NCBI RefSeq assembly: GCF_028532725.1
Contig: NZ_JAQKGU010000001.1
Coordinates: 186,001 to 250,000, forward strand
Source: Desulfovibrio sp. Fe33
Lineage (GTDB): Bacteria > Desulfobacterota > Desulfovibrionia > Desulfovibrionales > Desulfovibrionaceae
Direction of reading: 5' to 3'
Length of the DNA: 64,000 nt
Of the stretch, positions 33,033-38,627 are shown one piece after another. Below the pieces are notes generated by a model. That model saw nothing but the letters and a program-made list of their open reading frames with translations. It was not told where the DNA came from and made no database searches. Position numbers and translations under genes: made by a program. Each line of letters opens with the position of its first letter. Positions within the stretch are counted from its first letter, which is position 1.

Positions 33033-33064
33033 AAGGCCTTGCGAAGAATTCTTCGTAAGGCCTT
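33033..33064 (-). terminator. Former tRNA-Phe terminator, now at the element's left end
   Basis: Near-palindrome AAGGCCTT-N16-AAGGCCTT with inner CGAAGAATTCTTCG. On the minus strand it is followed by TTTTTCTTTTTT. It stands just downstream of the orphaned tRNA 3' end, as the original tRNA terminator would. Confidence 0.8.
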
Positions 33065-33069
33065 GATTC

Positions 33070-33123
33070 CTATGGTGCTCGGGGACAGAATTGAACTGCC
33101 GACACGGGGATTTTCAGTCCCCT
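33070..33123. repeat. attL: 54-bp duplicated 3' part of tRNA-Phe
   Basis: Identical over 54 bases to 38549-38602. It covers the tRNA from the anticodon stem to the CCA end plus three bases, but is not followed by the 5' half of the tRNA. With the integrase gene 160 bp away, it is an attachment site. Confidence 0.92.
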
Positions 33124-33270: not shown

Positions 33271-33284
33271 AAAAGGTGGCAGAC

Positions 33285-34547
33285 ATGAAAGAGAAATGGA
33301 AAAGCACTTCGTTCAAGGGCGTGAGATACCGGCTTCACCCCACCCGCAAGAATGGCGTTCAGCGAGATCGGTATTTCTCCATCAGATTCTACGTTGACGG
33401 CAAGCGCATCGAGGAGGGGTTAGGTTGGGCTTCCGACCCAAAAGAGAAGTGGTCGGCAGAAAAAGCATCCCGTGTCCGTGCTGGACTCCTGGCCGCCGCC
33501 AAAAGGGGGGAAGGCCCCCGCACGATGAATGAACAGCGGGAGAAGGCCGAGGTAAAGCGCCTCGAAGAAAAGAAGGTTGCCGAGGCCGAAGCACGGCGCA
33601 ACGTCACATTCAAGTCTTTCGCCGAGGACCAGTATTTCCCTGTCGCTCTGCCCACCTGGAAGTCGGAAACGGGCCGCAAGCATGAAGAGCATTGCAAGAC
33701 CTGGCTCTACCCGCATATGGGCGACGTATCATTGCGCGAGATCACGATTAGCCACGCCAACAGGGTCAAGTCCGCCATGCTCAAGGCTGGACGCGCACCG
33801 AGGACCATGCAAGCGGTTTTCCGCACTTTCAGCATGATATGGACCTCGGCCCGTGATGCCGGGATCGTGGAGGGCAAATGTCCCACCACCCTCAAGTCCT
33901 TCAAGCTGCCGAAGATCGACAACGAAAAACAACGATATCTATCCCCGGAAGAGGCCGAGCGTTTGCTGGCCTGTGTACGCGCAAAGAATGAACAGGCGGC
34001 GGACATGGCTCTGGTTTCATTAGAAAGCGGCTTCCGTTTCGGGGAGATCGCCGCACTAACTTGGGGGGCGGTTGACCTTGAAGCCCGAACCCTTCTCGCC
34101 ATGAACACCAAAGGCGGGAAAGATCGAGTTGTCCCCATGACCGAGCGGTTGCATGAACTCCTGTCAGGCATGGAACAGAGCGGCGACGGCGAACTTGTGT
34201 TCCCAACCGGCCTTGGCACCAAACACGCGCAAGTCCCCACCGCCTTTGTCCGGGGCGTGGCCGACTCCAAGTTGAATGAAGGCGTGACCGATCCGAAGAT
34301 GAAAGTCAGCTTTCACGTTTTGCGGCATTCCTACGCCAGCCGTCTTGTCAAACAGGGGGCGGGCCTTCTCCATGTCCAACGGCTCTTGGGCCACAGTACG
34401 CCGGTCCTGACCACCAGATATTCCAAGCTGGCGAGCGAAGACCTGACCAACGCGGTCAAGGCCATGGAGCGGGGCGAGAAAGCCGACGCCGCCGAGAAGA
34501 GAGGCCGGGGTAAAGTCGTTAACATCAAACGCGCAGGAGGTGAGTGA
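33285..34547 (+). CDS. int: Tyrosine recombinase (integrase)
   Basis: 420 residues. The N-terminal arm-binding-like domain (about 5-50) has YRLHPTRKNGVQRDRYFSIRFY, then a charged coil and the SAM-like core-binding domain. The catalytic domain has SLESGFRFGEIAALTWG (first Arg), TKGGKDRVVP (Lys), FHVLRHSYAS (His-x-x-Arg), LLGHSTPVLTTRYSKL (His and Tyr nucleophile). All catalytic residues are present. ATG at 33285 with AGGTGG ahead is preferred over GTG 33276. It should catalyse exchange between the tRNA-Phe repeats. Confidence 0.93.
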   Translation: MKEKWKSTSFKGVRYRLHPTRKNGVQRDRYFSIRFYVDGKRIEEGLGWASDPKEKWSAEKASRVRAGLLAAAKRGEGPRTMNEQREKAEVKRLEEKKVAEAEARRNVTFKSFAEDQYFPVALPTWKSETGRKHEEHCKTWLYPHMGDVSLREITISHANRVKSAMLKAGRAPRTMQAVFRTFSMIWTSARDAGIVEGKCPTTLKSFKLPKIDNEKQRYLSPEEAERLLACVRAKNEQAADMALVSLESGFRFGEIAALTWGAVDLEARTLLAMNTKGGKDRVVPMTERLHELLSGMEQSGDGELVFPTGLGTKHAQVPTAFVRGVADSKLNEGVTDPKMKVSFHVLRHSYASRLVKQGAGLLHVQRLLGHSTPVLTTRYSKLASEDLTNAVKAMERGEKADAAEKRGRGKVVNIKRAGGE

Positions 34548-35225: not shown

Positions 35226-35447
35226 ATGCATCCCGATCAGATTCAAGAATTGGAGCGGACCCTTCCGCCGATCATTGCCAGAACCGCAGTCCACCAACTC
35301 ACCGGGGGGCTGATTTCCACCGGACGTTTAGCGAACCTGGATAGCCTCGGCCAAGGCCCGAAACGAATCCGGGTTGGTCGCAAGGTCGCCTATTTGCGTT
35401 CCGACTTCACGGCATGGCTTGCCAGCCGCACGTCCGAGGCGGCGTAG
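35226..35447 (+). CDS. AlpA-like DNA-binding regulator/excisionase
   Basis: 73 residues with a MerR-type winged helix: GGLISTGRLANLDSLGQGP, then KRIRVGRKVAYLRSDFTAWLASR, close to AlpA of satellite and phage elements. AlpA-type proteins switch on int or serve as excisionases. AAGGAG precedes ATG 35226. The stop TAG abuts the ATG of the next gene, so the two are coupled. Confidence 0.82.
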   Translation: MHPDQIQELERTLPPIIARTAVHQLTGGLISTGRLANLDSLGQGPKRIRVGRKVAYLRSDFTAWLASRTSEAA

Positions 35448-36608
35448 ATGCCCGCTCCTGATCCCTACATTGTCGCCGTTGGCGCAAAGCTGTACCAGCT
35501 CCTTTGGGACGGCCATTCAATGGCTCAGGCCGTGAGTATGGCCCAGGAGTTTGCCAAAGCTACAGGGCCAGAAATCCCTTTTGAAGACCTGCTCAACATC
35601 GCCCAAGCGCAGATGGAAATTGTAGCAGCCGAGCGCGTCAGCACCGTCAGCAATCAGCCCAATTCGTCAGCGCCGTCAGCATCGTCAGCAGCATCAGCGC
35701 ACGTCATCTCCGCGTCAGCAGATCGTCAGCACTTCGTCAGCACTTCGTCAGCAGATATCAGCGCTTTCGTGGATGAGTTTATCGCGCAATCTACTGGAAC
35801 ATTTACAACTTCCGAGTTGTGCCAGTGGTGCGGGTTGACTGATCGATTACAGCGCAACGCCGTCAGCTCTAAACTCTTAAGAGAAAGACAAAAGAACAAG
35901 ATAGAGCGCGTTGGGTCGCGCTCTGGCAACTGGCGACGGGTCGAGAGCGAATGTGAAGCCATCAACTTCATGGCCGATGAGGAAGACCCCGTTGATATCC
36001 GGCTGCCCTTCGGACTCCATCTCATGGTGGAGTTGATGCCGGGTAACATCGCCATTGTTGCCGGTGAGCCAAACGCGGGAAAGACCGCCTTTTTGCTGAA
36101 CGCCGTCCGCATGAATCAAGATCGTATGGAAGTTCATTACTTCAACAGCGAAATGGGCGCGCAAGAACTGAAAAAGCGCCTCAGCAAATTCGATTGCCCC
36201 ATGTCTGAGTGGAGATTCAACGCATGGGAGCGCACCGACAATTTCCACGACGCAATCAGGCCCGGAAAGGGAAAGCTGAACATCATCGACTTCCTGGAAG
36301 TCTCTGAGGACTTCTTCAAGGTTGGCGGGATGCTCAAGGCCATCCACGACAAACTGGACGGAGCCTTGGCTATTGTTGCCCTGCAAAAGAACCGGGGTAC
36401 GGACCTCGGCCTTGGTGGTGGTCGCAGCCTGGAGAAACCCCGCCTCTACCTGGCCCTTGAGCCGAACAAGCTCAAAATCGTGAAAGCCAAGAACTGGAAG
36501 ACAGACCGCAACCCCAACGGCCTTGAAAGACGCTTCAAGACTGTCAACGGCTGCGATTTGCGCCCGCAAGGAGAGTGGCAACGCAACAGTGCTGAAGATG
36601 CCGCCTAG
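35448..36608 (+). CDS. RecA-fold replication ATPase (RepA/DnaB-like) with iteron array in its gene
   Basis: 386 residues. A short N-terminal domain is followed by a Ser/Ala-rich linker (about 63-105), a winged-helix-like segment (FTTSELCQWCGLTDRLQRNAVSSKL), and a RecA/DnaB-like ATPase. The Walker A motif there is VAGEPNAGKTAFLLNA near residues 203-218. The ATPase also has HYFNSEMGAQELKKRL and LAIVALQKNRGTDLGLGGGR. This layout suits a replication initiator or helicase of an integrated element. The linker DNA carries nine CGTCAGC repeats in all three frames. Confidence 0.78.
   Translation: MPAPDPYIVAVGAKLYQLLWDGHSMAQAVSMAQEFAKATGPEIPFEDLLNIAQAQMEIVAAERVSTVSNQPNSSAPSASSAASAHVISASADRQHFVSTSSADISAFVDEFIAQSTGTFTTSELCQWCGLTDRLQRNAVSSKLLRERQKNKIERVGSRSGNWRRVESECEAINFMADEEDPVDIRLPFGLHLMVELMPGNIAIVAGEPNAGKTAFLLNAVRMNQDRMEVHYFNSEMGAQELKKRLSKFDCPMSEWRFNAWERTDNFHDAIRPGKGKLNIIDFLEVSEDFFKVGGMLKAIHDKLDGALAIVALQKNRGTDLGLGGGRSLEKPRLYLALEPNKLKIVKAKNWKTDRNPNGLERRFKTVNGCDLRPQGEWQRNSAEDAA
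35636..35752 (+). repeat. Nine CGTCAGC repeats (iteron-like) inside the rep-type gene
   Basis: Copies start at 35636, 35645, 35665, 35674, 35683, 35713, 35724, 35735 and 35746. The spacings are 9, 20, 9, 9, 30, 11, 11 and 11 bp. The last four copies are one helical turn apart. The copies fall in all three codon phases, so they are not explained by repeating amino acids. This suggests binding sites for the encoded initiator, hence an origin. Confidence 0.7.
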
Positions 36609-37420: not shown

Positions 37421-38383
37421 ATGTTCACACGAGAAGTCAACGGATCGGCTGCCCGCGTCGTCGGGCCGACAATGAACGGGACTGTGCAACTCCCTGACCT
37501 GCTTGCATATGAGCAGGACGGCACCGTCAACGCTACCCAAAGCGGCATGGAAATCGGCCCTCTCGGAAGCCTCTTCGCTTCCATCCTGGCCGGGGTGCCC
37601 TCCGACGTGGGCCAGACCGCCGAGGACCGCGCACGCCGCCACCAGAAACAGTTTGCCAACCTGACTGATACCGATTCCAGGTATGAGCGCGATGCTTGGC
37701 GCGGGATCTACGACGCAATCGCCGCCACCAGCGCCGAAGTGATGACACCGGCCTTTACGAACGCGGGCAGGACTGTCCGTGACCGCGACTTGATTCCGGA
37801 GCGGGCAATGGCGCGTGGAGTTGAAACCATTGTCACCGCCCTGGACGGCTTGAGCGAGAAGTTGCGAATCCTGTTCCTGGCTGGACCTGGTAGGCGTTTT
37901 GAGGGTGTCCAGAATGTGCTCGTCAACGCCGTGGCCCTGCCGGTGGCCGAGAATTATGAGGCGCTGCGTCGTGAAATGCGAGCGGCCGAGGTCCGTGCCC
38001 TGTTCCGCGAGAAAAAGACCAAGGGCGAACAGGCGGCGTTCCTCAACGCCCTGAGCCTCAGCGAATCGTATGAGGGCTTGGCCGCACTTGCCGATGACCC
38101 TATGGGCCGCCCTCTCGCCCCGGAGTTTGAGCGAAGCACCCGCACCGCCCTGGCTCATAAGATTGACCCTGCCCTGAAATTCTGGCTCGACACTGAGCCC
38201 GGATTGCTTATCGGGATTGCCGGGCGCATTGACACACTCGTCGAGTTGATCTTTCAGACGGCGTGCCACTCGGTTTTGCAACGTCGTGGGAATCAATCCA
38301 TCAAGTTCAACCGGCCCGACTGCGGACGCATCGCACGGGCCTACACTGAAAGTCTTGTGGAGGATTTCGACTTGGCGGCATAG
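37421..38383 (+). CDS. Hypothetical protein, last gene of the integrative element
   Basis: 320 residues, mainly helical, with no membrane segment or signal. Notable stretches are LFASILAGVPSDVGQTAEDRARRHQKQF and the repeated helices of residues 100-230 (EKLRILFLAGPGRRFEGVQNVLVNAVALPVAENYEALRREM). AAAGGAG precedes the ATG. No family recognised. Its end position and size would fit a cargo or interference gene, but this is a guess. Confidence 0.65.
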   Translation: MFTREVNGSAARVVGPTMNGTVQLPDLLAYEQDGTVNATQSGMEIGPLGSLFASILAGVPSDVGQTAEDRARRHQKQFANLTDTDSRYERDAWRGIYDAIAATSAEVMTPAFTNAGRTVRDRDLIPERAMARGVETIVTALDGLSEKLRILFLAGPGRRFEGVQNVLVNAVALPVAENYEALRREMRAAEVRALFREKKTKGEQAAFLNALSLSESYEGLAALADDPMGRPLAPEFERSTRTALAHKIDPALKFWLDTEPGLLIGIAGRIDTLVELIFQTACHSVLQRRGNQSIKFNRPDCGRIARAYTESLVEDFDLAA

Positions 38384-38515: not shown

Positions 38516-38541
38516 AGGCTCACAGATGGTTCTGTAAGCCT
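38516..38541 (-). terminator. Terminator of tRNA-Phe supplied by the element
   Basis: AGGCTCACAGA pairs with TCTGTAAGCCT with one internal mismatch. On the minus strand it is followed by TTTTTTCTTTT. It differs in sequence from the displaced terminator at 33033-33064 but does the same job at the same distance from the tRNA. Confidence 0.8.
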
Positions 38542-38548
38542 TTGATTT

Positions 38549-38602
38549 CTATGGTGCTCGGGGACAGAATTGAACTGCCGACACGGGGATTTTCAGTCCC
38601 CT
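38549..38602. repeat. attR: 54-bp repeat within tRNA-Phe
   Basis: Identical to 33070-33123. It overlaps the 3' two thirds of the intact tRNA gene, so integration leaves the tRNA functional. Confidence 0.92.
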
Positions 38603-38627
38603 GCTCTACCGACTGAGCTACCCGAGC
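38552..38627 (-). tRNA. tRNA-Phe (anticodon GAA)
   Basis: 76 bases on the minus strand. The acceptor stem is GCTCGGG/CCCGAGC, with ACCA encoded. The D-arm has AGCTCAGTCGGTAGAGC, and the anticodon stem GGGGA/TCCCC encloses CTGAAAA with anticodon GAA. The T-arm has TTCAATTC. It is intact despite the inserted element. Confidence 0.95.

Follow-up and report, generated by a model that had tools for sequence, protein, structure and literature searches.

A repeat array inside an initiator-helicase gene as the putative replication origin of a small integrative element in Desulfovibrio sp. Fe33

Nine exact copies of CGTCAGC lie within the coding sequence of a putative initiator-helicase gene on a small integrative element of Desulfovibrio sp. 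Fe33. We propose, with a probability of roughly three in four, that these repeats are duplex sites for the winged helix of the gene's own product and that, together with an AT-rich stretch, they form the replication origin of the element. Origin activity, physical binding, helicase activity and dependence on a helper are all inferred. The element was found in a window of 64,000 nucleotides (the whole stretch of DNA that was analysed, to which all coordinates refer), and its features are as follows.

33055 to 33123, no strand assigned: attL, duplicating the 3' end of tRNA-Phe (69 nt, in direct orientation to attR with 96% identity, at a distance of 5479 bp)
33276 to 34547, plus strand: tyrosine integrase, 423 aa (PF00589, E=1.6e-23; phrog_1, E=1.5e-54)
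35226 to 35447, plus strand: small HTH protein, weakly AlpA/excisionase-like (phrog_2790, E=0.013; PF12728, E=0.1)
35448 to 36608, plus strand: initiator-helicase gene, 386 aa, which holds the array (DnaB_C PF03796, E=5e-7; AlphaFold2 mean pLDDT 89.9)
37421 to 38383, plus strand: element cargo, 320 aa, without assigned function (no family match)
38534 to 38602, no strand assigned: attR, overlapping tRNA-Phe (38552 to 38627, minus strand)

With an integrase and attL/attR repeats at a tRNA 3' end, the criteria for a tRNA-integrated tyrosine-recombinase element were met, and the integrative element of ~5.5 kb postulated in the initial annotation could be delimited by its two 69-bp copies of the tRNA-Phe 3' end with the integrase between them. 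A search against Rfam returned the tRNA as its sole match. Neither viral contigs nor the order's 348 genomes yielded a relative of the 320-aa cargo protein; taking the class in place of the order gave those 348 genomes again and nothing further. The 3' end of tRNA-Phe recurred several times, complete or in part, in some genomes of the genus, suggesting that it is probably a shared integration hotspot there.

The following parts were distinguished within the initiator-helicase gene.

35448 to 35639, plus strand: N-terminal three-helix domain (~aa 1-64), which is not the phage primase domain
35636 to 35752, plus strand: iteron array, nine exact CGTCAGC in 117 bp, encoding a disordered linker
35748 to 35939, plus strand: winged helix (aa 101-164; AlphaFold2), the proposed repeat reader
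35861 to 35867, plus strand: tenth CGTCAGC, within the recognition-helix codons
35868 to 35907, plus strand: candidate unwinding element, the gene's 40-bp AT maximum (68% vs 45%)
35946 to 36587, plus strand: RecA-fold/DnaB-like helicase domain (aa 167-380; VIA-align Z 18-20)

The product had been described from the letters alone as a RecA-fold ATPase with a winged-helix part, a description borne out by the DnaB_C profile, the AlphaFold2 model and the fold matches (Z 18-20 to RadA, KaiC, G40P and DnaB when the RecA-fold part only was used for the search). In the AlphaFold2 model the winged helix comprised H101-114, E118-120, H121-128, H133-148 (the recognition helix), E152-154 and E161-164, and the array-encoded linker (aa 67-90) had a pLDDT below 50. 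Pfam and PHROGs profile searches of the protein gave a DnaB-like helicase and no match to lambda O, and no match to Prim-Pol was found in the protein or in the 12 kb around it. Residues 1-64 were 41% identical to a protein of genome G027; a similar domain opens an AAA_25 protein encoded on a second element of the genus (L005/L265). The latter element (L265, G027:C12:379000-392000) carries an integrase, a small HTH protein and the AAA_25 protein sharing this N-terminal domain; it also encodes a protein resembling a phage major capsid protein and is perhaps a capsid-carrying satellite. Judged by its sequence, the protein of the Fe33 element is a truncated or chimeric relative of the Prim-Pol / winged helix / DnaB-like helicase family.

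Nine exact CGTCAGC copies in 117 bp, the last four 11 bp apart, had been reported in the initial annotation, and recounting gave the same result (starts at 35636, 35645, 35665, 35674, 35683, 35713, 35724, 35735 and 35746; start-to-start spacings of 9, 20, 9, 9, 30, 11, 11 and 11 bp). The copies fell in all three codon phases (2,2,1,1,1,1,0,2,1), from which it had already been argued that a protein repeat could not explain them. Counting the word in shuffled synonymous versions of the gene, the check proposed at that time, led to the same view: across 10,000 permutations of synonymous codons the array stretch averaged 0.49 copies and never held more than 4, against the nine observed. A protein repeat as the source of the array is ruled out by the phases and the shuffles. 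Moreover the array is the only tight cluster of at least three CGTCAGC copies in the 3.46-Mb genome. Degenerate copies (AATCAGC, GCATCAGC, CGTCATC and ATATCAGC) were present in the same gene, and the tenth exact copy has a counterpart in the phage homologue. Helical phasing of the array's own sites was not significant alone against a strict null (64/500). A neutral origin, in which tandem duplication or a low-complexity Ser/Ala linker left a functionless word, would fit the Ser/Ala-rich composition and predicted disorder of the linker, as well as the many phage sequences with CGTCAAC runs at 6-, 9- and 12-bp spacing; it is at odds with the three codon phases, the non-triplet spacing and the outcome of the synonymous shuffles.

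Conservation among homologues tells against such neutrality as well, the repeats being conserved and the spacers diverged. Homologous genes that keep the protein linker but lose the DNA repeats would have refuted the initial annotation; the homologues gave the opposite outcome, the closest of them keeping every repeat while the spacers and the linker peptide change. In particular, the phage primase-helicase L017, a 72% identical protein, has ten copies at the same place in its gene, with 63/63 repeat bases but only 48/70 spacer bases identical (p=1.2e-7). Furthermore, two compensating 1-bp indels relative to L017 put the peptide between them in another frame and leave the sites unchanged. Synonymous conservation along the gene was highest at the array and at codons 136-153. 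In distant genes another word was repeated in or near the same place; in genes of Humidesulfovibrio and related Desulfovibrionaceae the word in this linker was CGTCAAC, present 6-11 times. That selection acts on the repeats at the DNA level is, from these sequence comparisons, near certain. DNA similarity to L017 starts shortly upstream of the first repeat, so the element may have gained the array, the winged helix and the helicase together as one piece.

The array pattern is a trait of a large family of viral primase-helicases, a point absent from the initial annotation. The winged helix and ATPase of the Fe33 protein were 71-77% identical to those of L017, L033 and L032 and 32-54% identical to those of other relatives. 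The relatives come from phages, prophages and methanogen viruses, and many have an N-terminal Prim-Pol; the wider family architecture is Prim-Pol, helical domain, winged helix and DnaB-like ATPase. A strict test for an in-gene array (at least four copies, a number reached by 0/300 synonymous shuffles) was passed by 31 of 96 homologous loci, a few of which are near-duplicates. These loci had 21 distinct top heptamers among them, and in none were the copies confined to one codon phase. Most of the homologues without Prim-Pol had no in-gene array.

Some twenty further words were used by distant phage and archaeal-virus relatives, for the most part arranged as two clusters with ~10-bp spacing; pooled adjacent spacings were mainly 9, 10, 11, 20 and 21 bp. 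In the main family, cluster I lay at about -245 to -205 relative to the winged-helix start, and cluster II at +19, (+29), +40, +50, +60 and +70, within the winged-helix codons. This two-cluster geometry was the same for different words, among them TGTCTACA, TGTCCACA, TGACCACA, TGACCTCA, ACCTTACA, CTGTAACA and GCGACAAA. That one word recurs in two clusters separated by 233 bp, and also inside conserved codons of the winged helix, is a further difficulty for a neutral origin of the array, which phases, shuffles, conservation and two-cluster word sharing refute in effect; we give it next to no credence. In the main family the array precedes the helical domain and in the subfamily of the Fe33 gene it follows that domain, so its position is not strictly conserved.

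In vir555 the strongest array of the 43.8-kb record sits inside the primase gene; the exact word CGACCACA of MetMV is confined to the primase-helicase gene (first 59 kb; the remainder repeats the start). Plasmid and phage collections yielded no plasmid match and only two archaeal viruses, and GC skew in MetMV and vir555 tracked gene direction and marked no origin. The MetMV record (MK170447; L258/L259) ends with a second copy of its first ~8.7 kb, which probably makes the deposited sequence too long by that duplicated stretch.

The word alone is not diagnostic: when viral contigs were searched for three CGTCAGC or three CGTCAAC (129 loci), only one locus was a family member, and the larger other arrays were mostly spaced by 6, 9 or 12 bp, as in protein or tandem repeats. 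The gene of another phage replication-type HTH protein (L010:597-1268, IMGVR_UViG_3300020410_000002) has three CGTCAGC at 11-bp spacing in a linker, in different codon phases, and is possibly an independent in-gene origin. At L155 (~4561, minus strand), outside this gene family, CGTCARC occurs in two groups of three with 11-bp spacing, the groups being 117 bp apart, a possible two-cluster origin. A 6.7-kb viral contig without a member of this gene family has, at L009:3478-3528, an 11-bp unit containing CGTCAGC in five perfect tandem copies.

Among the homologues, word distance correlated with winged-helix distance (partial r of 0.53-0.60, overall helicase distance removed), also for the recognition helix and wing, the codons of which lie outside cluster II (partial r of 0.38-0.44). 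Correlation with word distance was about zero for Prim-Pol, the helical domain and the ATPase, and 0.30 for the linker overlapping cluster I, as overlap predicts. Moreover, residues diagnostic of CGTCAGC versus CGTCAAC were concentrated in the recognition helix and wing (5/30, vs 5/246 elsewhere; p=0.002). Some of the correlation is inevitable at sites that share codons with the winged helix; shared ancestry is only incompletely accounted for by the permutation test, and the assignment of words and registers was scripted. Since the word differences track the winged helix and no other protein domain, the winged helix is likely the reader of the repeats, a conclusion well supported by covariation only, with no binding data; to that extent it favors the earlier suggestion of sites read by the product of the gene in which they lie.

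The same covariation bears on a different use of the words, as template start sites for priming by a Prim-Pol/helical-bundle primase, with the element borrowing a helper-phage primase in trans. Template-word priming has been reported for the NrS-1 phage polymerase and pRN1 ORF904, Prim-Pol is present in most array-bearing homologues, and NrSPol recognises TTTGGTTA and GTG motifs, with the helix-bundle domain reported as the site binder (PMC8718748). Several observations disfavor this possibility: i) the word differences follow the winged helix, not Prim-Pol or the helical domain; ii) the Fe33 protein has lost the Prim-Pol and helical domains, but all repeats were kept; iii) cluster I is invertible (it is inverted in L196, L227, L226 and L038), which would swap the template strand; iv) the NrS-1 genome has only two copies of its own 8-nt word (PMC7102993). 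Priming sites thus appear quite unlikely. As for a helper prophage in the resident genome, no Prim-Pol relative was found there.

The candidate unwinding element at 35868-35907 showed conserved synonymous sites in 11/12 codons, and the matching stretch was also the AT-richest of the homologous phage gene (65% vs 36%). Across the subfamily of the Fe33 gene the AT-rich stretch lies at ~+102 to +141 and is the AT-richest 40 bp of the gene in 4/6 members; in the main family it lies at -320 to -261, beside cluster I, in 20-22 of 25 genes. An adjoining AT-rich stretch suits an origin better than an autoregulatory operator, one of the other protein-binding roles that the array might serve, along with a partition site, a packaging site or a helper-phage decoy. 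An initiator sitting on its own gene would also impede transcription, and small elements often bear packaging or partition signals. However, no partition or terminase gene was recognised in the element with Pfam and PHROGs profiles, and like arrays occur in homologous replication genes of phages and archaeal viruses, so that a role of this kind is judged unlikely. The preferred reading remains a replication origin: the lambda O-like origin within the initiator gene that had been put forward at the outset is supported, and DNA-level selection, covariation and the AT-rich neighbour have been added to it, while for binding and firing there are no data.

At such an origin, several copies of the protein would bind the sites through their winged helices after excision of the element, the sites lying about one helical turn apart on the DNA. 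The bound protein would gather the DnaB-like ATPase at the AT-rich stretch, open this stretch and load the helicase, and priming and synthesis would be provided by host or helper-phage enzymes. Origin, winged helix and helicase would then make up a portable module, fused to the Prim-Pol primase in phages and to a different N-terminal domain in this element.

The evidence leans, by a modest measure, towards a broader proposal: that a viral initiator-helicase family of bacterial phages and methanogen viruses carries the origin in its own gene, partly in the codons of the reader domain, and that the origin moves together with winged helix and helicase, as a cassette open to capture by a small element even when the primase is left behind. 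If this is true, a single overlapping code governs the evolution of protein sequence, word and origin. That each lineage has a word of its own is what would be expected if protein and sites evolve together, and the small element would have kept the origin-helicase cassette with the primase gone. In-gene origins were previously known from a few model phages; this family offers dozens of naturally occurring combinations of a binding word with its winged helix, and thus a ready-made system for studying how initiator specificity changes without loss of function. It also bears on how coding constraints and a DNA signal are reconciled within a DNA-binding domain, and the array pattern provides a way to propose origins in uncultured phages.

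No description of an in-gene array in this family was found in the open literature searched; most subscription journals lay outside the search, so this is weak evidence of novelty. The criteria for a layout of the lambda O type, i.e., DNA-selected repeats within the initiator coding sequence and an adjoining AT-rich stretch, were met. In lambda the iterons fall in the part of O that joins its two domains and have an AT-rich stretch next to them. The lambda origin has four 19-bp iterons in the middle of gene O (PMC3985674), and the likeness lies in the position of iterons within the initiator's own coding sequence; the proteins, on the other hand, are unrelated, the winged helix is here fused to the helicase itself, and the words are of 7-8 bp with ~10-bp spacing. 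Phage SPP1 has oriL within gene 38 (PMC6316719), but gp38, gp39 and gp40 are separate proteins, whereas here binder and helicase are one chain. A winged-helix (WH) domain has been suggested as the origin recogniser in PrimQH Prim-Pol proteins (PMC5862659); unlike the Prim-Pol (AEP) primase-helicases and the NrS-1 polymerase, the protein of this element has no Prim-Pol part. The origins of PICIs/SaPIs (PICIs being phage-satellite islands) likewise consist of short iterons on a small element, with two sets around an AT-rich part located 3' of the replication gene (PMC6092414). That arrangement was not met by the Fe33 array, whose sites are inside the gene and, in relatives, partly inside the codons of the DNA-binding domain. 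Finally, PLE shows covariation between its origin and the DNA-binding domain of its initiator RepA, with a replicon that can be swapped as a module of the satellite (PMC8263062); that origin, however, lies between genes and has three ~30-bp repeats, and RepA_N is another protein family.
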